From Microthyrium microscopicum (taxonomy: Eukaryota; Ascomycota; Dothideomycetes; Microthyriales; Microthyriaceae): DNA of 64,000 nt. The number at the start of each line of letters is the position of its first letter. The first letter of the stretch is position 1. The position numbers and the translations under genes are program-made. Below are positions 43,901 to 61,898 of this stretch, piece by piece. The stretch is from positions 1,804,070 through 1,868,069 of the forward strand of contig MU004236.1 in the NCBI GenBank assembly GCA_010405405.1. The letters run 5' to 3'. The notes under the pieces were generated by a model, which saw only the letters and a program-made list of their open reading frames with translations, was not told the DNA's origin and searched no databases.

Positions 43901-43904
43901 CTTA

Positions 43905-43931
43905 CCGTAAGAAAGTAGTGAAATAAGTAAT
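43905..43931 (+). repeat. Left terminal inverted repeat of outer element
   Basis: 27 bp beginning CCGTAAGAAA. It pairs with the right TIR with three mismatches, each a C/T or G/A transition. Immediately outside, CTTA on the left and TAAG on the right extend the inverted symmetry by four bases. Confidence 0.8.
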
Positions 43932-45251
43932 ATAAAGACTACTTAAGCCTTATAATTTTAGGTAGCGTTATAAGGGGCATTAAAAATATAGGGCTAGTAA
44001 AATAGGTAGTATCTATTTTTAATGCCCCTTTAGTATCTAGATATTATTACTAAGTAAGCTATTTTATCGTTTTTAAAGCTAATCTAAACTAATTTAAGTA
44101 GAATATTATTATTATAATAGTAGGAGTAGATTTTATAATTAGGCTAAAGCTATAGAAAGATATTTATATATAGATTTTATAGTAGAATTCTATATTATTC
44201 TTTATACTAATTAATATCCTTAAAACCTAATTCTTTTAACTCTAAATTAATTAAATATTAGGAATTTAACTATTACTATACTAAAAGTACTAAAGAAAGC
44301 ATACTAAGACTATTAGCCTTTTACTAAATTAGACCTAAATATTATAAGATTAAACTTTAATTAACCTTCTAGGGCTAAATTATATACTAAAAAGTATAAA
44401 TTACTTTTATTAAGGAAATAGTATACTAAATAGGCTAAAATAAAGTCCTAAAATTATTCTTTTATTAAATACTAACTAGAAATAGTTAAGTAAATAATAT
44501 AATAATATATTCTACTTAAATAGGGTAAATAATAGTATAAACTATCTAATAGTATAAAATAGAGTAAATATCTTAATACTTATTATTAATAGCGTTCTAT
44601 AAGATATAGTAATACTACTAAATTCTTTACTAAATCTTATTTAATAGTATTAAGATAATAGAATTAGTAAGTAGCTTTATAGATTACTAATAATTAAGCT
44701 TATTAAGTTTTTAACCCTAAAAAGTACCTTAAGCACTATTTTAGGCTTAAAGATACTATTTATATTTAGTATTATAAATAAAGAAAATAAAAAAAGTTTA
44801 TTAGTACTTATTAATTACTTTATTATATAAATAACGTATAGTAGTATATTTATACTACTAAGATTACTTATAGTAAGTTTCTAAAAGAGTATAAATTAAT
44901 AAAGGGCTAGCTTTAAAGATTCTTATATTACTAAAGGATTAGTTAAAGAAAGGCTACTTATATTACTTAAGAATTATTATTATTATAAGTAGAATAGTAC
45001 TAAGAATTTATTACTTATATAAAGCTTACTATCTATAGAGCTATTAGACTTACTAGTAGTAAAAGAAGAAATATTAATAGTATCTTAGATAAAGAATTAG
45101 AAGTAATAATATAGCTCTATTAAATAGTTAATATAGATAAGATACTAATACCTTTTTATAACTTTAGTAGTTATACTTTAGTAGATATAGGCTTTAAGAC
45201 TATTACTATTTATACTTATAAAGATAAAGATAAGAAGTATTAGATAATAAT

Positions 45252-45256
45252 AATTC
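45252..45256. repeat. Target site duplication, left copy (AATTC)
   Basis: Identical to 54025-54029 and directly abuts the left LTR. Together they fix the Gypsy insertion site inside the outer element. Confidence 0.8.
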
Positions 45257-45574
45257 TATCACGGACCCCTACAGACTCGCTATAGAAGTATAGGCATCCT
45301 ACTACCTCCTTATTCTCTCTACTCTTATAGTACGCTATAAGAAGACTCTTTGCTAACGAATTGCTAAGTTAACGTAGATAGTGCCTACTCTCTACTATAA
45401 TAGGATAAAGCTAAATAGAGCTAAGAATAAAAAGAAGAGGTAGTCTTATTAAAGAGGAAATAGAGAGGAGTATAAGTAAAGAAGTAGACTTAATCTCTAG
45501 AGAGATTAAGTATTAGTCTTATCTTAATACTAGTTCTTAGAATCTATTTCCCTTACTTTAAACTATCTTTTATA
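45257..45574 (+). repeat. Left LTR (318 bp)
   Basis: Starts TATCACGGACCCC, interpretable as TGTCACGGACCCC with TG changed to TA. Ends TTTTATA, interpretable as a CA end changed to TA. Same length as the right LTR and alignable throughout; the differences are mostly transitions. Confidence 0.85.
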
Positions 45575-46599
45575 ATTCTAATACTTCTTAACGTACTATA
45601 TAGTAGTAAGCTTAATAGATTCTTATAATAACGAAAGGTATAAGAAACTCTAATAGAGGCTAAAATAGAGGTAAAGATAAAGATAAAGACCTAGATAATA
45701 ACTTAGATAATAACTTAGATAATAACTTAAGTTAATATAATAGCTTACTACTACTAATAGACCTAGAAGCTACTTTAGCTATCCTTTATATAGTAATAGC
45801 TTAAATTAATAAATAAGAATAGGTATACGTAGCTAAGACGTAATAGCTTTATAATAAGATTATAGCCTTATTGTAGGCCTCCTAATAGAATCCTTTTCCT
45901 CCTTCTTAACTAAGAGAACTAAAACCTACTAACCTTATGGTCCTTTAATATAAGACTTAATAAGAACTTATTAACTAAACCGTAAGAGTAGAAAACGCTT
46001 TCTATTTAGTACTCTCTTAATTTACTATATAAGAAAGCTATATTAAATAAGTTAGTTAGTTTATAAGTCCTAACCTATAAACTTAATAGAACCTAAAGAA
46101 GAAGAAAATTAAGCTACTAATTTAGACTTAGGAGAAGTTTATAGAATAGTTCTAATATTAATATGCTTATTTTATTATAGCTAAACTTTTAGTTACTAAG
46201 AAACTTAAAGAAGCTAAGTAGCGTTCTACCTAGACTCTTATAAAGTTTAATGCCTACTTAGACTTACTAAAGACCTAACTTAGTATTAATATAATTTATA
46301 AAGAAGATAAATAATACTTAAAATTCCTTATTAAGCTAACCCTAAAACTATAGAAATAAATTAAATTAATAGAGTATATTCTAATTACTAAATTAGACAT
46401 AGTTAATACTACTAAACGCTTTTAGTAAATTACTTATAAGCGCTTATAAGAAGACTTATTAAGTAACGTTAATCCTTAACCCTTATAATTAAATTATAAT
46501 CTATAAGGTAGCTAAGATAAATAATAGGAACGTAAAAGTTGCGTAGAGTATATACTATTAACTTACCTACTAGTAAGTATAAAGCCTAGAAAAGATAGT

Positions 46600-49500
46600 A
46601 AGACGTATAAGGGAATTACCTATTATAATTATAACCTATTTAGATATTATATAAATAAGTATAATAAGCCTCTAAGAGGCCCTTAAGCTATCTAAGAGTA
46701 AGGAAATTTTTTAGGATATAGAGGCTAGAGGAGGAACCTAAATACTATCCTTCTCTCATTAGAATTTAGAATTAACCTAAGAAAAGAGTAAGTATTATAA
46801 GGATTAAGAACCCTATCCTTATAATACTAGATTAGATTATAGAGGCATAAATTTAGATAATAGCTAACCTTCTTCTTATTATAGAAGACTAATCTATAAA
46901 CGTCCTTTTAGATACTAGTAGTTAAATTAATATTATTAATAAATAACTTACATAACGCTATAGCCTTAAGAAAGTAACTATAGAAAGTATCTAAGCTATA
47001 GGTTTTACTAATAATATAATAGGAAATAAATATTATAGTACATATTAGCTACGTTTTTATTATAAGAACTCCTTTAGTATCTATAAGGACGTTAAATACT
47101 ATTTCTTCTCTTTTAATTAGACTAAATATACTTACCTTATAGTATAGGGAACCTTCTTATAAGAGAAATATAATATCTTTATCTACTTAGAGCAGAAGAA
47201 GTAGCTATTTAAGAAAGAAAAGCTAAAATATAAGATTATAGACTAAAGTATATTTAAGAAAGGGCTATAAGAATATAGTAAGGTATTTAAACTAACTATA
47301 AAATTTAATAAGTACCTATACTTAAATAGTAGGAAAGTAGAGATTTCTAATATTAGCTTTAAGCTAAGCTTATAGGTAAATATTAATCTAAAGAATAGAC
47401 TACTATAAGAGCTATAGAATTTAGCCTCTTAAGTTAAGGCTAGAAATAAGAAGGAACCTATCCTTAAAGGTATTAAATATACTATTAAGATAACTATAGA
47501 CCCTCCTTTTAGACCTATCTATAACTTATTAGTAATAAAACTTAAGGTACTATAAGAATATCTTAAGTTAGCCCTTATAAAAGGCTAGATCTAGGAATTA
47601 ATTAGCCTAGCTAGAGTACTTATACTCTTTATACTTAAGAAGAATAAAGGATTATAACTTTATATAGATTACTACCTATTTAACGTAGTTACTATTAAGA
47701 ACTATTACTTACTCTCTTTAATAAGCAAAATATTAGATTAACTTAGTAGAGTAGTATACTATACTAAGATAAACCTTAAAAATACTTATACCTAGATACT
47801 TATTAGAGAATAAGATTAATAGAAGATAGCATTCTATACCTAATATAAATACTATAAATACTAAGTTATACCTTTTAGACTTACTAACGCCCTAGCTACG
47901 TTCTAAGCCTATATTTATAAAGTATTAGTAGAACTCTTAGATATTATCTATATTATCTACCTTAATAACATCTTTATCTTCTCTAAAATATATAAGGATT
48001 ATATTTATAACGTACGTATTATATTAAAATACCTACTAGCCGCTAAGCTTTATACTAACTCTAAGAAGTGCTAATTCTTTACTAATAAGGTAGAATTCCT
48101 TAGTTTTATAGTCTTTATAAAAGAAGTAAAAATAGATCTTAGTTAAGTTAAGTTTATTATAAAATAGCTAGAGCCTAAGAGCTATAATAATATATAAGTA
48201 TTTATTAGCTTTATAAATTTCTATCGTAGGTTTATTAAAGGCTACTTAAAGGTAGCAAAACCCTTAACTAACTTGCTTAAGGGTATATAACTTAGAAAGA
48301 AATATAAACCTTTTATCTAGATAAAGAAAGTAATATAAGCATTTTATACGCTTTATATAGCCTTTAATAAAGTTTCTATTCTTATATATTTTAATCTAAA
48401 GAAGAGGATCTACCTTAAAACTAATACGTTCTAATATATTATTATAAATATCCTTTCCTAGCTATAGAAAGATAGCTAATAGTATCCTATTACTTTCTAA
48501 TTAAGAAAATTAATAGAGGCTAAGATTAACTATTAAACCTATAACTAGGAGCTCTTTACTATTATTAAAGCTATAGAATATTAGTAATATTACCTTAAGG
48601 ATAGTTACTACCCTATTAAGATTCTAACTAACTATAATAACCTAGTAAGATTTATAAAATAGAAGAACTTAAATAAGCGCTAAGCGTACTAGGCAATTAT
48701 ATTAGTAAAGTATAATTTCTATATTAAGTATTAAAGTAGAAAGATAAATCCTATAGATATGTCGTTAAGACGACTTAACTATACTACTATAGAATAGGCT
48801 ATAAATAACTTGCTACCTACTCTTTAAAAGAAGCTAGGACTCCTCTTAAAGAAAGAATAGAAAAAGCTAGTCTTTATAAATAGTCTTAAGTTAATAAAGC
48901 AACTTATTAGTAAGATACTAATAATAAATAAGCATAACTTTATAAATAAGATATTTAATATTAAGTACTACTTAGTACTAAACGTATTAAGAATAGGTAA
49001 AATACCTTATAAGTAAATAAGTAGCTAAGATACTATAAGTAAGGAAAGTAAAGACTTTCTTAGCTCCTAAAAAGTAGTTACTATTCTAGACTACGTCTAT
49101 ATTCTAAGAACTATAATAAGAGAAGCAATATAAGACCTATATATTATAGATAAAGAAGCTCTAAACGCGCTAATTACTTTAGTCTAAGTTACTTAAGATA
49201 GCAATAAGGAACTTAGGCGTATCTAAGAAGTACTTAATACGTAGCTAGAGTCTAAAGAGACCTAATAGCTAAAGAATACTTAGTTAGTCTAAAGAGACTA
49301 CCTCTACTATAAGGGCTAACTATATATACCTTATAAGCCTACCTTAAGAAACGAACTCTTAATAATATACTATAATAACTTACTAACGAAATATCTAAAG
49401 GTTTAAGGCACTATAAAACTACTTTATAAATAGTTTTACTAGCTAAAGATAAAAGAGGACGTATAGGTATATATAAAGACTTGCCTAGTTTACTAAAGAA

Positions 49501-50420
49501 TAAAAGTAAGATAATATTAACTTTATAGTAAGTTAAAGTCTCTACCTTAACTAACTTAACTATAATAAGAAATTACTATAGACTTTATTATAGATTTACT
49601 ACCTTATAAACGTAAACTTATAACATTTAACGCTATATTAATAATTATAGATTAGTATACTAAATAAATAAGATATATTAAAACTATAAAAGATATAACT
49701 ACTAAAGAGCTAGTAGAACTTATAAAAAGAAGAGTTTTCTTAGAAAAAAGCCTACTAGTAAGTATTATATTAGATAGAGGATCTATCTTTATAAGTAAAT
49801 TTTAAACTAAATTATACTAGGCAAGAAAGGTAAAACGTAAGCTATCTATAGCCTAGTATCTATAAACTAATAACTAGACTAAGTAGTAAAACTTAGTATT
49901 AAGATATTACTTATAAGTCTTTACTACTAAAAATTAAATAAATTAGTTAAGCCTCCTACCTATAGCATAATAGGTAATAAATACGTCTTATAATAAGATA
50001 CTTAACTATACTCTAAATATAACTAAAATAAGATATAAACTAACCCTTTTAGTAGACCTCCTTATAAACCTTAAGAATAAGCTTAAAGAAGAGAGAAGTA
50101 AGGTAGTAATAGTAAAGTAAAGAGTAGTAAGAATAGAATAAGACTAAGAAAAGATAGTAGAACGCTAAGAAAAAGTAATAAAATACTAAGCTAAATTCTA
50201 TAATAAGAAGTATACCCTAATATTATTCTATATAGAAAATAAGGTCCTATTATTAATAGAGAATATTAAACTTAAACTACTAAGTAAGAAGCTAGCCCTT
50301 TATTATATAGGACTATTTAGTATCTAAGACGTAGTTAAAGAATAAGCCTACTAACTAAACCTCTTAATAGGCTACTAAATTTATAACGTCTTCTATATAT
50401 CTAAACTTAAGCTATATTAT
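46600..50420 (+). pseudogene. Gypsy gag-pol relic
   Basis: Protein-level similarity is visible only when stops are read through: protease, reverse transcriptase, RNase H and integrase segments in order, all in the LTR-defined sense direction. Diagnostic pieces are listed under the parent element. Most lost residues are explained by G-to-A and C-to-T changes, for example the catalytic Asp pair of RT to Asn-Asn and the protease Gly to Ser. No functional product is possible. Confidence 0.8.
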
Positions 50421-53400
50421 TAAAGAGAAGGTTAAGAAGAACTAGAGCTCTTTATAGCTATTAAGCTAAAAGATAAAGAAGAATAGAAGGTAAAAGCTAT
50501 CTTAAATAAAAGGAAATAGAAAGAGAAAGTTAAATACTTTATCTATTAGTAAAGCTATCTCCTAATCTATAACTCTTAAGAATAAGAAGAAGACTATAAG
50601 AATGCATAAGACTTAATTAAGGTTTTTAAAAAAGCTAGTAAACCTAAGTTTATTATTATAAAGAAAAGAAAAAGAAAAGAATAAAACTATAAAGAAAGGC
50701 GTTATAAGAGAGAGAAGATTTTTATATACTTTTTATTTACTATAGAAAAGTAACTAACTAGTAGAATAAAAAATAGAAAACTAAAAACAAAAATAGTAAA
50801 AATTATAGCTAAGTAAACTACTAGTAAGACGTAAACAAAACCTAAATAAAATTAAGGAGTCTTATAAGAGACTAGTAAGCTAATATTATAAAAAAAGGAC
50901 TCTCCTTTATAGAGATAGAAGGAGTAAACTACTAGTAAATATAATAAAAAATAAGAATTTTTTCTAAACGTTATAACTATAGATAGCAAGTTAATAAAAA
51001 GGCTAGTCCTAAAAAATATTAAGACTAGTAATTTACGCCTAAAGAAATAAATAAATATAGTATTTACGTAATTAAAACGCAACCTAATTACTAGACTCTA
51101 ACTCTATATATTAAAACGCTATAACTTTAAAAGTAAGCATTAGATACTATTAGTTACTCTAGAACTATTAAGAAAAGAGTACGTAATAAATATAGCTAAG
51201 GTAATTAGTACGCTATTAGTAGATAAGTAAGTAGATAAAGAAATATTATAGGTTATAGGTACTATAAGCGTAAGAAAAGGATAAAGATAGCTAGGATTAG
51301 TACTAATAGAATTAATACTACTATCTAGATTATAGTAAGTAGTTACTTTACTAATAATATAATGCTACTAAAATTAGTAGAAAAAATAGGCTATTTTATT
51401 AGTATATTAAGCCTAAGCCTAGGTAGCTAAAGAGGAGCTATAGAAGGGTAGTATAGTTTCTTTATTAAACTACTTAGTCTATATACTACTTATCTCCTTA
51501 TCCTTAACCTCCTTTATAGTAAGTAGATATACTATAAAGCGTAAGGTACTAACGTCTAAAATAAATTTAGGAGGCACATAGGCTCTAAATATAGTAATAT
51601 TCTCTCTATTTTAAACTAAGAGAAATAAGAAGTAGATATAAAAATAATTATCTTATATAGGTAGACTACTAGTAAGTAGAGATAATAGAAAGTTATTAGC
51701 AATAAAACCTAGCTCTTAGTAAGGATTAAGTAGTTTAAAGCTTTCTAGGTAGATTCTTATAAGCTAGATAGGTACTTAAACTTATAACTAAGTATAGGAC
51801 ATAGGTAGAAGATAATTCTAAGAATAATAGTTAGTAGAAGTACAACTTATAAATAAAATATAAAAGAACCTATACTAAGACGCTAGATATTATTAGCTTA
51901 CTTTAGTATATCTCTAATATAACTAAGTATAGCGTAAATATAGAATACTATATCTAAGGCTATAGAATAGCTATAGCCTTCTAAGTAACCCTCTATACAA
52001 CGCTAAGTTATAACGAAAGTATTATAGGTTTATTAATAACGTATTAACTCCTTATTATAGATATAGTACGCATTACTATACTAATAAAACTTAATAAAGG
52101 AACCTAAAGGCGTAATAACTATAATAAAACTTATAGGATTAAGAGATATAAAGTAGATATATAAGTAGATTAGGTTATTTACGATCTTATTAAAGACTAT
52201 AAGTACCTAAACAAAGGTTAATACGTAAGCTATATCTAAATTACTAATAAGATACTTATAATATTATAATAGTACTTTTAATAGGTATAGTAACAGTACT
52301 TAGTAAAGTTATCTTTATAATTATACGTAGTACCTTATAAGATATAGCTATTATTAAGACGATAATAGACTATATTATTAATAATATTCTATAAATATTA
52401 GAGGTAATATAGAAAAAGAAGTAAAGTAAGTATGGCTTAAGAGTAAGATATAATCTAAGTAATATTCTATAAAGGTACAAGTTAGTAAAAGAATTAGGTA
52501 AGTTACTTATAATATACTTACTATAAAGGCCTACTACTAAGTAGTCTAGGCTATAGAACCTAAGTCTATATCTTCTAGCTTATTAAGCAAGTTATCTAAC
52601 TTAGACTCTTTACTATCTAGAAATAATATATAAAGTAGCGCAAGAGTACCTTAGCAAGTAGATTACTTCTTAATTATAAAACGAGTAGTAAATAGCTACA
52701 AAAGCTCTAGTAATAGAGTATCTTTATAATAACGTTTTTTATTAGCCTAAGAGGCGCGCGAAATATAAGTTAGCTACGAAGTAAGGTTAGTAATTAAGTT
52801 AATTATAATAGTATTAAGAGGTACTTAGAGTAAGTAATAAAAGCTATTAATGCTACGTTAGGCTAAATGAGAAATGAATAGCAGATTAGTATTAGTAATA
52901 ATATAGCCTAAGGGTAATAAGACGTAAGGAGTTAATAAGCTTCTCTAAGGCTCTAAGAGAGCTACTTAGTTAATAAGTTAGACTAAGTTATAATTATATA
53001 ACTTAAGCCTTTTAAGGACGCGCTAAGGACTCTACGAAGTATAAAGAGTAGTAGAATGCTAATAAGTTATATACTTAGAAGATTAGCTACTACATTACTA
53101 AGATTATTAGAACTCCTAAAAGGTATAATATATTCCTAAAGAATAATTATCTAGGTTAAGGTTAACTAACTACTTACTCTCCTACGAATTATTATCGTTA
53201 ATAAAGTTATTATTACTAAAGGAATTAATGTTAATAAAGTCCTAATAGGACGAACTATTACTATATAAACTACTAAAATAATAATAGGAAGATATTATAA
53301 GAAAATAATTAAAATACTATTAGAACGTACGTTAAAAGGCTAAAAGTATTAAAAATAGGCAAAAAGAGTATAAATAGAATACGAAAAGGGTATAAATTAA

Positions 53401-53706
53401 ATTAAGAACTCTAAAGAAACATAGTTTTTAAAACTTTTAAAATTTTAGATAGGTAATATGCTTATAAATTACTTATAAGAAGAAGAGGTTATAGTATTAA
53501 GGAGATAGAGTATTATAGTCTTAAAATATTTTAGTATTATATATATACGCAATACCTTTATAATAAATAGAGTTATTATTACCTATATAATAAGTACTAT
53601 AGTAACTCTAAAGGTAAGAATACTATAAGTTAAGACTATACTTACTAAAAAAGGAAAGCATAATAGCTAAGTTATTAAGAGTAACTTCCTTTAAAAGAGA
53701 AGGCTT

Positions 53707-54024
53707 TATTATAGACTCCTATAGACTTGCTATAAAGGTATAAGCATTCTACTACCTCTTTGCTTTCTCTACTCTTATAGTACGCTATAGGAAGGCTCTT
53801 TACTAATAAACTACTAAATTAACGTAGATAGTACTTACCCTTTACTATAATAGGACGAAGCTAAATAGAGCTAAAGATAAGAAGGAGAGGTAGCCTTACT
53901 AAAGAGGAGATAGAGAGGAGTATAAGTAAAGGAGTAGACTTAATCTTTAGAAAGATTAAGTATTAGTCTTATCTTAATACTAGTTCTTAGAATCTATTTT
54001 CCTTGCTTTAAACTATTTTTTATA
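53707..54024 (+). repeat. Right LTR (318 bp)
   Basis: Starts TATTATAGACTCC, a more heavily mutated copy of the left LTR start. Shares blocks such as CTCTACTCTTATAGTACGCTAT and GATTAAGTATTAGTCTTATC with the left copy. A purine-rich tract (AAAAGAGAAGG, ~53693) precedes it, as expected for second-strand priming. Confidence 0.85.
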
Positions 54025-54029
54025 AATTC
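54025..54029. repeat. Target site duplication, right copy (AATTC)
   Basis: Matches 45252-45256 and directly follows the right LTR. Confidence 0.8.
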
Positions 54030-55883
54030 TAACTATTACTACTAATAATATCTTTTAAATTTTACTACTAATTATATTCTATAGAACTAAAAATAAGAAG
54101 AAGAGTTATATTAATAAGATAAAAGGCTTATACTACTATAATAATATTTATATAAAGTATAATAAGATAGCGTAGAATAATAATAAATTAATATAGTAGT
54201 AGTTAAAAGAGATATATTTAAAAGAAATAAATATAGCCTTAGAAGAGTATTCTAGTAGTCTTAATAGTCTTAATAACTCTAAAGATATTCTATAGCCTTT
54301 TATCTTAAGTAATTCTTTTCTTATATCTTCTTAAAATAGAAATATTTTAATACTAATTATAAAATTTAGAGCTTAATTTAATAATATCTTTACTATATTT
54401 TAGCTCTATTATAATATCTTTAATATCTTATACCTCTTTAATATCTATAATATCTATAATATCTACTTTTAATTCTTTTATTCTTATTATAAACGTCTTC
54501 TCTACTTATAAAATAGCTTCTATTAAGTAAATCTATAAAGATAATAATATTATTATTACTATTATTCTTCCTAATTATATATCTAAAATTTAACTATTTA
54601 ACGTTAGTATAAATAAGTTCTTTAATTAAATAGTTAAGAAACTATAAGATATATAGGCCCTTATATTTTACTAATAAGATTACTTTAAAGACTTCTCTAA
54701 TATAAAATTTATAAAATCTTTAGAATAAATAATATCTTAATACTACGTATTTATAATATATATTATAGAATAGGTATAAAATTAAATATATACTTATAAT
54801 ACTAAAGTTATTAGGCGCTTCTTTATAGCTATAAAATTAAATAACTAGTTAAGTACTATTATTATAGAAAAGAAGTATAATATTAGTATTAAAGATTTAT
54901 TAGTACTACTAGACTTTTTAAATTAGTATTTAATAAAGCTAGAATCTATTAAAGCTACTACTACTAAAGAGAATAACTAGTAAAAGAAGGTTAATAATTC
55001 TAAGATATATATACCTAATATTAGTAATAATAATAGTATAGAATATTATAATAAAAATAAGATTAAAAATACTAAAGATACTATAGATATTAAAGTTATT
55101 TAAGATATTAAAAATACTAAAGATACTACTATAAATATTAATTTAAATAAAGATAAAAATAATAGATTTATAATATCCTTTATAATAATAATAAATACTT
55201 TACTATAAAATTTACCTATACTTATTCTACTAAAGATATCTTTACTATTTATTATGCCTTAGCCTATTCTTCTTATTCTTCTAATTCTATAACCTCTTTA
55301 CCTTTAGAATTAGTATTTAATACTACTATCTAATATCCCTCCTTAAATTAAATTCTATAGTAAACTTAAAGAGTTAAATCCTATCTATTTTATATAGTAG
55401 AATATTCTTAAGTTACTAAAATAAATACTTAAAGACTAGTATTAATAGCTTTCTAAATAGGCCTATAATCCTACTCTAGAACCTATTTAAAATATTAAGA
55501 TAGAATATTTAATAGTAATATTCTATTAGTAATAAGACTTATAATATTAGTTATTTAGCATTAAATTAGATAGTATTCTTAATCTATAGTAAATCTAATA
55601 AAGTTAAGAAAATTATTAGTAATAACTAAGTAATATTAGTATTAAAAAAAGCGCTTTAATTTATATACCTATATATAATTCTATATTATCTAGTTCTTAA
55701 TATTTTAAGCTTTAAATATACCTATTTTAGTATTAGAATTCCTTATTTAAGATAATATAAAGTTAAATAGGATTATAGGGTTTATAATTACAAAAATAGA
55801 TTAGTAGTAATTTACTACGGAAGGCATTTTTACATAAACCACGCTAAAAACGCCATTAAACGCCCTCTCTCTATGCACGTCAC

Positions 55884-55910
55884 ATTGCTTATTTCACTGT
55901 TTTCTTACGG
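55884..55910 (-). repeat. Right terminal inverted repeat of outer element
   Basis: Reverse-complements the left TIR (24/27). Unlike the left end, the ~100 bp just inside it (55800-55883) still has normal base composition, so mutation did not spread evenly. Confidence 0.8.
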
Positions 55911-56641
55911 TAAGAGTATCAACTCAAGCTCTGTAGAGTGTTGGACAGCCGGATACCATACACGCCAAGTCCCAGGCTCCCTACGAGCTGGAATCCAGCC
56001 GAAATCCCACCATTATTGACAGGCCTTGATTACCATCTAAAAACGAAAAGGCTCACACTTTGTCCCAGCAGTCTGTAGCGCTTGCTGAATCATTGCCAGC
56101 CAAAGTGTCACTACTGTGGAAGACTGCCCCCGCGCTTCATCAGCCGCTCGCACCTGTTCCTTTCTGTCGGTTTTCTCAGTTTTTGTTGGAATTGCTTGCC
56201 CACGCGCAGCGGCCCAGTCGCTCTTCCGACGTCGTATCCTACTCTACGCTTGACCTCCCTTTTTCTCACTTCCTGACTTCTGACTGCTACTTTTTACGCA
56301 TCTACTGCCCGTTTTCATCCCTCTATTCTCAGTTCAAGCCCACAAGCCCATCGCCCGTCCTCATCCCGTGTCTCCTCTCCTCCATGTAAGTTCAACTCTC
56401 AAAACCCACTTCAGCCTCCCTTTCCTTCTCTCTTCTCTCAACATCTATCATTCAACACCCACCTATATATTCGCCGACCCAGCCACTGATCACCATCACG
56501 ACCTAAGCCATCCTTTCTGAACTAATTGGAAACATAGACAGCTTATTGGTACTTCCTTGCCGGGCCAAATGAACACACGTGTGTAACAATCAAAGGCACG
56601 CGCTCACAAGTTCCGCTGTCTTCAGCGGAACATTTCACACC
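55911..56641. other. Promoter and leader of the downstream polyQ/PPxY gene
   Basis: Normal-composition sequence begins exactly at the transposon end. Strong pyrimidine tracts occur at ~56150-56170, 56230-56290 and 56389-56470, typical of fungal promoters and leaders. CATGTAAGTT at ~56383 could be a leader intron donor. Open frames at 56060-56389 lack protein character. Confidence 0.5.
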
Positions 56642-58423
56642 ATGTTCAATGCCAACGAATCACAAACGCTGATGCTTCGTCCGAGGCAACAACAACAGCA
56701 ACAGCAGCAACAACAACCGCTACATCAACAACCACCACAGCCACAACGTTCTCCAGAGAGCCAATTACCTCGCGGAGAATGCAGATTCATAATTCCTGAG
56801 TTGGATACCGAAGGCAATCGCCAAAGGTGCACATGTGTCTCATATTGCCTCAACAAAGGTGTCCCGGGACTATTATGTGGTTGTGGTCATCAGGCATGGC
56901 ATCATGTCACCGAGCCCACCGGCGCCTTCGTCCCTGTTGCTGACCATCTTGCATTGATTGATCAATTCAAGAAACTCGAAGAGCACACAAGAAAGCTACA
57001 GGATGAGGTTGTGCGGGAACGAAAAGACCGGGATCGTCACCTTCGCGAACTTCAAAGTGTTCAGTTCAATGCTCTTGGCCAGTTGAGATATTACGTTGAC
57101 GATAGGATCGAAAAACTGCGGTTGCATGCTGAAGATAAGATGGAAGGCTTGGAAGATAAAGCAACCGAGCTTGCCGATATAAGAAGACAAGTGTCAGACC
57201 TTGACGAAATTGTCATGCGTCTAGAGGACAGGATCGATTCTGGAAAGCGGGCATCACGATCAATGACCCCACTCCTCGAAGGACAAAAGAGTCCTTCAAC
57301 TCCTCTTCTCCCCGAAAGAGTCACTGCCGAACTTCCCTTCCGGAGCGTAGCACAGTCTGAAGCTTGGGACGTCAGAGTGATACTCGTACCCTCCAAACAC
57401 ATCGCATTCGCCTTCAGCATAGACAGCCTTCCCTACCAGAGATGCCAAACCCGTGGCCTTCACCAAGATATACGGTTAAGAAACCACTCTAGCGAGACAT
57501 TTGTTGCCAGCGTAGAGAACGTTTTCATGGGAATTCTACGCCGACGACCATGGATGCCATTACAATGTCTAAAGTCGTCAGACATGTCTCTCTGCCAGCT
57601 TCGAAGTCGTGCCTTTGATCCTACATCCTGGGACTACGAGTTCCTTGAATCTCAGTGTATGGCTCATGATAAACTCCAAGGCGAGATCATATTTATTGCT
57701 TTGCAGCACGAAGAACTGAGCTGGGAGGAGATTCGGTCGCTTCCAAGCATATTTGGTGCCGATGAATCCTGCTGGGAGTATCATGAGGAGCTAGACAGCT
57801 CCAAGGCCAAGGATTCCATTGCCGCCGAAGACCGAATGGAAACCGAACGCTCACGACCTGCCGATACAGAGTCCATTATAAGCGAGTTCCCACCTCCGTA
57901 CACATCTCGCGCATCGATGTATTCACCGGACACTCCTCGTCAAGGTCCTCTACGCCAGAGCCCTCTCGATGTGCTCGCAGGTGCCGCTGCTGGCTCAACA
58001 GGTCTCGCGGCTCCCAGTATCTCGGAACGCAGCACATACTCTGCACCCAGCATAATATCAGAGCGAAGCGTCACCTCGATGGGTAGCATTGACAGCACTC
58101 TTGCTCTCTCTGAAGCCGATGAGCACCGCACCAAACGCACCAAACGTGGCATGTTCATGGTTCGTTCGCCTTCGCAGCCACATCTTGGATCGCCACCCGG
58201 GACCAGCATTCACTCGGCACCTTCTTCTCCCCCACAAGGTCAAATATACTACTCTGGACGGGCCAAGCGGAAGATCCAGCCAACTCAAAAGGTTCGCGAA
58301 CCAATGGACTGGCGCCCAAGTGAATTTTCACTCAAGAATATACTTCACCGCAACGACAGCAAAGAGAAGCGACCTTCGACGAGTGGAACCGGCTCCATCA
58401 ACCAATCCGAAATGTCTTCATGA
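56642..58423 (+). CDS. Uncharacterised protein with polyQ tract, Cys/His cluster, coiled coil and PPxY motif
   Basis: Intronless, 593 aa from the ATG at 56642 (context CACCATG); the frame is open further upstream but lacks an ATG. A glutamine tract (QQQQQQQQQQ, ~residues 17-26) is followed by a compact Cys/His cluster (C-T-C-x3-C-x8-C-x-C-G-H-x3-H-H, ~residues 63-87) that may bind zinc. A coiled coil spans ~105-220. A globular middle (~245-390) precedes a Ser/Pro-rich tail with FPPPYTS (a PPxY motif able to bind WW domains, as in Nedd4/Rsp5 ligases) and Ser-rich repeats (ISERS). I do not recognise the family. The clean frame and normal composition right next to the transposon island suggest a conserved single-copy gene. 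Confidence 0.8.
   Translation: MFNANESQTLMLRPRQQQQQQQQQQPLHQQPPQPQRSPESQLPRGECRFIIPELDTEGNRQRCTCVSYCLNKGVPGLLCGCGHQAWHHVTEPTGAFVPVADHLALIDQFKKLEEHTRKLQDEVVRERKDRDRHLRELQSVQFNALGQLRYYVDDRIEKLRLHAEDKMEGLEDKATELADIRRQVSDLDEIVMRLEDRIDSGKRASRSMTPLLEGQKSPSTPLLPERVTAELPFRSVAQSEAWDVRVILVPSKHIAFAFSIDSLPYQRCQTRGLHQDIRLRNHSSETFVASVENVFMGILRRRPWMPLQCLKSSDMSLCQLRSRAFDPTSWDYEFLESQCMAHDKLQGEIIFIALQHEELSWEEIRSLPSIFGADESCWEYHEELDSSKAKDSIAAEDRMETERSRPADTESIISEFPPPYTSRASMYSPDTPRQGPLRQSPLDVLAGAAAGSTGLAAPSISERSTYSAPSIISERSVTSMGSIDSTLALSEADEHRTKRTKRGMFMVRSPSQPHLGSPPGTSIHSAPSSPPQGQIYYSGRAKRKIQPTQKVREPMDWRPSEFSLKNILHRNDSKEKRPSTSGTGSINQSEMSS
56690..56722. repeat. CAA/CAG trinucleotide run encoding polyglutamine
   Basis: Mixed CAA and CAG codons give about ten consecutive glutamines, then further interrupted Gln/Pro. 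Likely length-polymorphic. Confidence 0.8.
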
Positions 58424-59439: not shown

Positions 59440-61898
59440 TCACCACGTCTTGGGTCCAAACGTTTCGCCTTTCGGTACCTTGACCTGAATCGCCGTCTGC
59501 ATCTGATCCATTGTAGTCGGCACAACATCATTGCCCCTATCATAGTCGTTAGCACACATCGACCGCGCCCAGGAAAATTGCAAAATAAAACTTACCACCA
59601 CTTTGGCGCCTCAATGTTATTCATCGTAAACACAAAGAAAATAAACAACGTGCTAATCGCCAACCCCGTATCCAACCCACTCGCCGTCAAATAATTCAAC
59701 CGACTCCACCAGCGGAAATTCCGCGTCCGTATAACCTTCTGGAACACAAAGCCCACCACGCCCCACGTCAGATAGTTCAGTGGACTTGCGGGCGGTATAC
59801 TGCCTCCGCCGCCGAGAATTATGGGCGCCATGGCATATTTGATGGAGCTGCGTGGCCACTTCTTGGTCGCGTAGTAGAAGATGACTGGTAGCGCGGCGCC
59901 GATGGGGAAACCGATGAGGAGCGCGCTATATACTTGGCCGGGCGAGAAGATTCGTTGCGGGCCGAGGAGCCCCCAGATGACGCTGGCGGAGAAGAAGACT
60001 TTGGCGCCGGGGCAGGTGAAGTGTTGGGGTTGGGTGATGGTGCAGACTTCTTTGATGTTGGTGAGTGCGAAGTTGAGGACGAGGACTTGCACGAAGCAGC
60101 TGATGGTTGTCGCGACGACTTGGGCAGTGAACATGGTGCGGGGTGGGATTTTCATGTAGTGTCCGAACTTGAGGTCGCCGACGAATCCGAGGGCTTGGGA
60201 GGCGGTGATGTAGCCGTAGGTCTTGAACATCATGAGGGCGAGGGGCTTGCCGGGCTGCATGTAGCCCATGATGAACTCGGTGATGACGTTGAGGCCGATT
60301 TGCTGGTTGGTGATGGCTTGCACGATGCCGATGGGGAGGGTCATGATGGTGCTGAAGGCGACGGCGAAGAGAAAGGCCCACCAGGTGAATTCGGTGGGCC
60401 AGTGGAGGATTGTGACGAATGATAGACCGATCATTATCACGAATAGGCCCATGTACCACCAGGTGGGCGTCTCGGGGTACTTGAGCATGAGTTTCATGTG
60501 GATGTCATGGTCTTCGCCGCGCGATTTCTTGAATTGAGAAATGATTTGGTGTCGGTAATGGATCCAGGTGTACACAACGAGCGAGGCAATAGTCGCAAAC
60601 GACAGTCCGTATGATATGGCGAAAGTTGTCGACAGAAACAGAGGCGAGTATGCTTGATACGCGGCTTCATTGAGGGTCAGATTCTCGGTAACGACTTTCG
60701 TTATGTTGTAATTGAGTCCTGTGTTGTCGTATATCCCCGAATCTGATATCGGTAGGTACTTGCCATACCAAGCTCCACCGTAGTGGAGGGAGATGGCGCC
60801 AACAATGTAAAACAGGAATACGCCGACAAGGGTGTTGGCGATTGCGTGCCATGGTGGAATCATTGGATTGCCGACGAAACCTGCGATCTGGCTCCAGTCA
60901 AAAGTAATCGGGATCAGTGATAAACCTGTAGTGCCGCCAAATAGCTGATTGATAACTGGTCGTTGTGGATATATCCAAGTCATGAAAGCAAAAATGCTCA
61001 TGAACTGGGCCAAGAAGCCAGGAATGAAATAGTAGACGAAGGATCCAAGGAAGATGAGGCCAAACCACTTGTACCGAGACATGCTACCGCCGATGATAGT
61101 CGGGTCTGGTTCTTCATTCTTCTCGTGCATAGCATGCATAAGAGTAACACTGACAAGATTCGAAGGCCAAATCATGGCGGCCGGATACACCAGAAACTTT
61201 CTCAGCATTCCTGCGATTCCATATCCGAGACTCTGGGTTGTGATGACCAAGAGAAGTTGAAATCCAAGACCAAAGTTTTGCTTGTAGAAAGCAACTTGAG
61301 CCAGGATGATATCTGTGGCATACGCAGTACCGAATGATACACCGGCCATAACCACCACCACGCTGTGCTCCTTGACATTGAAGGGTCCAGGATTCAGGTT
61401 CCATTTTAAACCAAAAGTATTGAACTGTCTGTTTGGCAAGACCTTTGCCCATGCTGATCCTATTGCCCATGCAACAAGCTGTGCCACGATAACACCAACA
61501 CTGATTGCTGGATTACGAAGTGAGAAGAGTGTATTGACTGCGGCGCCGAAGATCGATAGTAATATTCCTAATGTCCAGGCTCGGATTGTGTTTGCTGGCA
61601 TCTCCTCATCGTAGTTGGGCACCGCGGCTCGGACTTCTTCGTACGGTGAGTCTTCTTCACCCTCTTTGGCCTTTTCATTCTCCTCCACAAACTCTTTCTG
61701 TATCACTGCTCCTTTCTTTTCTTCATCAGTCGAGATTGACGATACCGATCGTACTTCCGCTTCCGGCAAGTTAAGATCCCATGAATTTGGTCTGTGTCGA
61801 ATCTCTGGTCCAGTGACTTCTGTTGCCGGTGCCGGTGCCGATGCCTGTGTCTCCCTTCCCGTCACCTTACCGACCAATCCCTTGAAATTGGAAGTCAT
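59440..61898 (-). CDS. OPT-family oligopeptide transporter
   Basis: Two exons, 61898-59596 and 59536-59440, sum to 800 codons (799 aa, family-typical). A ~95-residue charged cytoplasmic N-terminus precedes the family signature EEDSPYEEVRAAVPNYDEEMP. About 14-16 hydrophobic helices follow. The second family signature HYMKIPPRTMFTAQ lies near residue 600. The small last exon supplies WWGNDVVPTTMDQ to the conserved GPKTW-type end; without it the frame would stop directly at the donor. OPT proteins are proton-coupled plasma-membrane importers of tetra- and pentapeptides, or of glutathione and siderophore-like compounds in some members. The substrate is not deducible here. Confidence 0.92.

Follow-up and report, generated by a model that had tools for sequence, protein, structure and literature searches.

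Architecture of the nested island

The stretch of DNA considered here (the window) is 64,000 nucleotides of contig MU004236.1 from the ascomycete Microthyrium microscopicum. It contains, between positions 43905 and 55910, an island in which a Gypsy retrotransposon bounded by long terminal repeats (LTRs) lies inside an older DNA transposon. The assembly that was searched for further copies has 36.9 Mb in 20 contigs, and the window lies on contig 7. The outer element spans 43905-55910 and has a TA on each side (43903..43904 and 55911..55912). Its left part (43905..45256, + strand) has a GC content of 0.20 and almost no CA/TG, and its right part (54025..55910, + strand) keeps CA/TG in the last ~110 bp. 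The terminal inverted repeats (TIRs) lie at 43905..43935 (+) and, by alignment to the left end, at 55880..55910 (-). Over their outermost 31 positions, the left and right ends have 26 identities, 5 transitions and no transversions, and beyond these positions the similarity ends. The original prediction gave 27-bp TIRs next to TA; the boundaries and the TA stand, and the TIR length has to be revised to about 31 bp.

The inner element occupies 45257-54024 (8.77 kb) between two copies of an AATTC target duplication (45252..45256 and 54025..54029). Its 5' LTR (45257..45574, +) and 3' LTR (53707..54024, +) are both 318 bp long and align without gaps, so that the equal LTR lengths and the duplication that had been predicted are confirmed to the base. 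The 5' LTR starts and ends with TA, and some other copies start with TG. The internal region (45575..53706, +) has stop codons throughout and a GC content of 0.25. Remnants of protein domains were found on the plus strand. Reverse transcriptase (RVT_1, PF00078, 47715..48110, 40.4 bits, with 2 TAG and 7 TAA within) and RNase H (RT_RNaseH, PF17917, 48504..48713, 25.6 bits) exceed their cut-offs. They are followed, in this order and below cut-off, by the integrase zinc-binding domain (Integrase_H2C2, PF17921, 49338..49508, 23.6 bits), the integrase core (rve, PF00665, 49626..49850, E 0.09) and a Tf2-1-like SH3 domain (SH3_Tf2-1, PF24626, 50241..50417, 29.3 bits, just under the cut-off of 30). Reverse transcriptase and RNase H thus precede integrase, as is required of Gypsy/Ty3 (Metaviridae) elements, and an LTR pair with a target duplication of 4-6 bp, which is also required, is present in 13 of 13 paired copies. 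The 3-kb 3' region (50650..53706, +) has no Pfam match on either strand. A hidden gene was considered for this region, and three overlapping pieces read in three frames per strand gave no Pfam match at E <= 1. A genome search with 51200-53600 returned 13 matches, all of them within Gypsy copies, 12 nearly whole and the 13th partial.

The inner element is probably a chromodomain Gypsy of the chromovirus branch. This assignment is made from the domains; the reverse transcriptase is heavily mutated. In the copy on contig C5 a chromodomain scores 41.2 bits, over its cut-off, downstream of integrase; the corresponding place in the window, obtained by arithmetic, is 50487..50633 (+). Two observations speak against the assignment: the match at this place in the window is 9.2 bits, which does not exceed the cut-off, and C5 is the only one of the 13 Gypsy copies in which it does. 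The likeness to chromoviruses of filamentous fungi such as MAGGY includes the order reverse transcriptase, RNase H, integrase, an integrase end with SH3-like and chromodomain modules, a 5-bp duplication and LTRs of a few hundred bp. The element described here differs in its length of 8.77 kb with a Pfam-less 3-kb 3' region, and in the transitions seen in every LTR pair found.

Copies elsewhere in the genome allow both boundaries to be examined. The LTR search gave 27 matches, 26 of which form 13 pairs; solo LTRs were looked for among these matches, and the only unpaired one is a 212-bp fragment, which was left out of the pair counts. All 26 paired LTRs are 318 or 319 bp long. Copies whose ends lie elsewhere would contradict the predicted boundaries, and for the LTRs none was seen, the same ends being found in all 13 Gypsy copies. 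The 5-bp duplications are identical in 12 of the 13, and in the outer C4 element they differ by a single C/T mismatch. For the outer transposon, the genome search returned at least 14 matches to the left end, at least 15 to the inner right part and at least 13 to the right end, the window's own included. TA followed by CCGTA (or its product under repeat-induced point mutation, RIP) at the left end and TA after the right end are found in the window and in each of the seven other close copies for which alignment located both ends; in two of these, one end was extended by 3 bases. Four further relatives were located with a TA-containing string and are therefore not counted as evidence for TA. For one relative (L031) the fetched sequence stops short of the right end, and both ends are missing from L032, a fragment. 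The outer ends therefore coincide with those of the window in all seven copies placed by alignment; a copy on C10 keeps the left end and lacks the right TIR. Uninterrupted copies are about 3.20-3.25 kb long, and the window copy without the Gypsy element and one duplication (43905-45256 plus 54030-55910) measures 3233 bp.

Unoccupied sites, which the original prediction proposed as a check, were sought with a probe of 120 bases across the junction from which the Gypsy element was left out. In 13 of 13 other outer loci tried, the alignment crosses the insertion point with a single target; it is ungapped in 11 and has a 1-nt gap in 2. The Gypsy copy on C11 can likewise be compared with a site that lacks the insertion. 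On C3 another LTR element, which itself sits within a relative of the outer transposon, contains two directly adjoining stretches that match the 3-kb flanks of the C11 copy at 90.7% and 90.5%. Two nested insertions, the outer one older and the Gypsy younger, are thus supported by copies elsewhere in the genome. Both insertions, their order, the unoccupied sites and the transition-only decay between the LTRs are shown by these data. Nesting of this kind is real and ordinary in RIP-active fungi.

Three further outer copies or relatives (L025, L029 and L023/L024) carry nested LTR elements at other positions, and 5-bp duplications could be read by eye at two of these. The TIR pair of each outer copy agrees internally and differs between copies. 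In eight copies (the window, L017-L022 and L025) there is 1 purine/pyrimidine mismatch in 240 sites, and random pairing of left and right ends gives a mean of 17.75 (permutation P 0.0003). Among the more distant relatives, two of four have 3 TIR mismatches in 30. The outer TIRs seem to evolve in concert, via gene conversion or co-selection with the transposase.

Base composition and the state of the landing site

RIP converts C to T, most efficiently at CpA, takes place in the sexual cycle and requires RID or DIM-2. The host DNA flanking the island has a GC content of 0.46-0.49, and the parts of the island have 0.17-0.33, the exception being the final 111 bases at 0.38. Division of the counts gives about 14-15 CA+TG per 100 bases in the flanks, about 0.2-0.4 in the outer element and 0.8 in the Gypsy body, with CG and CT steps retained in the island. 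CA+TG is thus normal outside the island and nearly absent inside, and the loss is limited to the elements. Judged by its dinucleotides, the island carries the signature of RIP acting chiefly at CpA, with C-to-T change in repeats, a preference for CpA and confinement to the repeat all found here. It is by this signature that the decay is attributed to RIP.

At the right end of the outer element, the terminal ~110 bp (55801-55910) was spared most RIP. Its right-most 50 bp holds at least 5 CA/TG in 7/8 close copies, and the left-most 50 bp of the window copy has a single one remaining. The body of the window's outer copy (43905-45256 and 54030-55600) has 0.06-0.09 CA+TG per 50 bp vs 0.41-1.31 in six uninterrupted close copies, a difference that additional rounds of RIP might produce. 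Transversions private to this copy (3 in 2596 ungapped columns) were considered as a measure of its relative age and are suggestive only, as alignment errors may contribute.

It is very probable that the island arose in four steps. A DNA transposon 3.2 kb long that inserts at TA, and that probably belongs to the pogo/Fot1 branch, would have landed in GC-normal host DNA and would then have been mutated by RIP. A chromodomain Gypsy element would have integrated into this dead, AT-rich copy with formation of the 5-bp duplication, and would itself have been mutated by RIP later. We infer both that RIP had altered the outer copy before the Gypsy element arrived and that the chromodomain steered the element to heterochromatin; homing of a chromovirus to heterochromatin made by RIP is the probable process.

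The surroundings of the other Gypsy copies point in this direction. GC contents of 0.15-0.28 were found in 20 of 20 fetched 300-bp bins beside 11 other Gypsy loci (the far side at C10 is a 363-base contig tail with GC 0.18, and one C4 side was left out). The flanks of the window element have 0.17-0.20, and so all 12 loci lie in AT-rich, RIP-like DNA. Twenty 1-kb spot samples were taken at round coordinates; one consisted of N, and 4 of the 19 readable ones had a GC content of <=0.24. The chance of 12/12 AT-rich loci is 8e-9 at 4/19 and rises to 8e-5 with 0.46, the upper 95% limit; these are values that assume independent loci and leave selection aside. The flanks are themselves repeats: the four that were searched (C15, C7, C12 and C9) all have copies elsewhere that match to within a few bases of the insertion. 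In addition, 11 of 19 Gypsy flanks meet GC-rich DNA within 2.5 kb, several abruptly. Because the flanks have their own copies and reach GC-rich DNA, their AT-richness does not look like a spread from the Gypsy element.

Were the Gypsy elements directed to such DNA, or were the copies that landed in genes simply lost? Selective loss of genic copies may equally give 12/12, and this possibility, which we regard as a serious though somewhat doubtful one, gains from the survivor bias that always applies to old insertions and from the fact that AT-rich DNA is not rare (4/19 spot samples). The small size of that sample (19 kb) is a further point against targeting. Selective loss has to be set against the chromodomain found in one copy of the family, a kind of module that, in the MAGGY element treated in parts of PMC2832683, is reported to interact with di- and trimethylated H3K9 and to redirect the Tf1 integrase. 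Moreover, the host DNA next to which 7 of 8 close outer copies (the window's included) persist has normal CA/TG, which means that at least one other family can survive in such surroundings.

The target duplications bear on the state of the site at insertion. Over all copies, 12 of their 65 sites are G or C, none of the 52 dinucleotide steps is CA or TG, and 1 of the 65 sites is mismatched. At the 13.45% seen between LTRs, one mismatch or fewer would arise with P = 0.0009, and the GC count of 12/65 vs 0.47 has P = 1.5e-6. These values suggest that the target was mutated before insertion. At the window site, AATTC stands in both copies of the duplication and AGTTC in 5/8 other close outer copies, and the G-to-A change, which is of the RIP type, may predate the insertion. 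A different course, which we consider unlikely, is that both elements were intact at nesting and that the whole island was RIP-mutated in the same period, the AT-rich target being a consequence and not a cause. RIP affects any duplicated DNA and both families are multicopy; CpA decay after insertion could make both duplication copies alike; and AATTC also occurs in 3/8 other close outer copies (L019, L024 and L025), so that the A need not be fresh or reflect earlier RIP. These points weigh against a target that was mutated beforehand. Intact nesting is itself opposed by the single mismatch among the duplications when compared with the divergence between the LTRs, by their AT-richness, which could also be imitated by an integrase that prefers AT, and by the window AATTC in both copies vs the more frequent AGTTC.

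A wider proposal can be made: RIP may make its own landing pads, in that decayed, AT-rich heterochromatin is sought by a chromodomain retrotransposon and islands grow by a ratchet of decay, targeting and decay. This proposal is tentative, and we would place it at slightly less than an even chance. If it is true, the sequence of a target duplication preserves the landing site in the mutated form that it had on insertion, and the order of events becomes testable.

Family of the outer transposon

The outer element is a probable relative of pogo/Fot1. It resembles these DNA transposons of ascomycetes in its TA duplication, its short TIR and a possible DDE_1-like remnant, and differs in its length of about 3.2 kb and in a DDE_1 match that lies below the cut-off. 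Four relatives show a codon-like transversion pattern with 0 gap columns from 600 to 1600, and the longest stop-free stretch placed inside the transposon among the fetched copies is 121 codons (L031). Weak DDE_1 matches were found in three of these four relatives, L026 (E 0.0074 and 0.0028), L031 (0.007) and L027, the last with no match in one scan and E 0.11 in another.

Membership of another TA-inserting superfamily is rather improbable. It would accord with the DDE_1 matches, which stay below the cut-off of 22 bits in all relatives, and with the length of 3.2 kb, pogo elements being listed at ~1.85-2.2 kb in a table of PMC4994206. In a scan without L017-L021 and L025, the lack of a DDE_1 match in L028, L022 and the window copy likewise counts against pogo/Fot1. 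Another superfamily is countered by the match of three relatives to the same domain, by the coincidence of L026 and L027 over profile segment 78-128, by the L026 match being in the frame with the most variable third positions, and by a TA duplication and TIR that fit pogo/Fot1. DDE_1 proteins from elsewhere in the genome were tried as probes for the outer transposase and gave no useful match (best E 1.5). Pfam matches to AGTRAP, Big_15, DUF5466, Get5_C and Phage_g100 were judged to be due to chance.

LTR divergence and apparent age

The divergence between its two LTRs is the usual clock of a retrotransposon. The original prediction was that this divergence would consist almost entirely of transitions and that ages read from it would mislead unless corrected for RIP. 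The effect turned out to be stronger than claimed. All 41 differences within the window pair are transitions, and the 13 Gypsy pairs have 557 transitions, no transversions and no indels in 4140 sites. The 5' LTRs of different elements differ from each other by 127 transversions in 24,819 pairwise sites and by 42 indels (the pairs are not independent), and the sequence as such therefore does not account for the absence of these changes within pairs. Among other elements nested in outer copies, three LTR pairs, of which the C10 pair may be partial, have 67 transitions and no transversions in 747 sites. For the Gypsy pairs the pooled bound on transversions is 0.00072 per site, and transitions outnumber transversions by more than 185:1 (95% bound).

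With the rate given in PMC4994206 and PMC12210899 (1.05e-9), the pooled K of 0.157 would date the Gypsy family to about 75 million years. The correction that had been proposed, splitting off CpA/TpG changes, fails: masking CpA lowers K only to 0.114, which would still mean about 54 million years. It fails because most of the LTR differences are at CpT and CpC. By context, the 557 differences are CpT 272, CpA 75, CpC 69, CpG 13 and mixed 128, and CpA reaches 151 if any A neighbour is counted; in the window pair clear CpA accounts for 7/41, or 13/41 by the wider count. Among sites with C in at least one LTR and an agreeing neighbour, the share that is discordant is 0.77 for CpA, 0.44 for CpC, 0.28 for CpT and 0.25 for CpG. 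CpA is still the preferred target, yet few CpA sites remain. The two window LTRs together have 10 CA+TG, where the host frequency predicts, by arithmetic, about 45-47 in each. CpA may have been lost in both LTRs after insertion, or it may already have been scarce in the parent element. The CpA share shows no significant trend with divergence (Spearman -0.13, P 0.67 for 13 pairs; -0.38, P 0.15 for 16).

Counting transversions is the usable correction for LTR ages. Assuming that one in three ordinary mutations is a transversion, the bound given above permits about one million years on average. That the transitions reflect gradual deamination of methylated cytosines over a long period, with LTR ages that are partly real, is very improbable. 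It would accord with the lack of any other kind of change among the 557 differences, half of which are at CpT and not in the favoured RIP context. Real age, however, should have added transversions and indels, and CA+TG is down more than tenfold in the body with the loss restricted to the elements. The RIP regions of Cladosporium fulvum, according to part of PMC10823647, have raised transversions too, unlike these LTR pairs, and this counts against the RIP reading.

Nested insertions and doubtful LTR ages have been described before. In Mycosphaerella graminicola, the sections of PMC4522978 consulted report 78 nested transposon clusters, the illustrated one having a 5-bp duplication, and state that RIP may have led to overestimated LTR ages. 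The likeness to the island extends to an LTR element in a base element, CpA-to-TpA decay and the warning about age; the present case differs in that the inflation has been quantified (0 transversions in 4140 sites) and that masking of CpA proved insufficient to remove it. RIP and LTR dating are also discussed for Podospora in part of PMC10787394. A limited search of the open-licence literature found no paper that sets pooled LTR transversions against CpA masking. What the island adds is an LTR divergence made up of transitions alone, the finding that CpA masking is no cure, and 12 of 12 loci in DNA that was probably already remade by RIP. It shows clearly how RIP-type mutation fakes great age. 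Pooled transversion counts in LTRs, together with target duplications as fossils of the landing site, provide simple tests for any RIP-active fungus.

Several Gypsy copies have features of their own. The C5 copy (C5:2753379-2762145) has 73% identity to the window in the 3' region, where other copies have 84-88%, and may represent a subfamily. On C4 (L043, L042 and L041) one Gypsy copy has inserted into another member of its own family, 15-20 bases within the internal region, and is flanked by TATAT left and right. The copy at L036 (C10) ends less than 400 bp before the contig end and is perhaps near a chromosome end. To the right of the island, in GC-normal DNA, the window has open frames of 614 aa (56579-58423) and 768 aa (59592-61898), and the latter, judged by eye, resembles an oligopeptide transporter.

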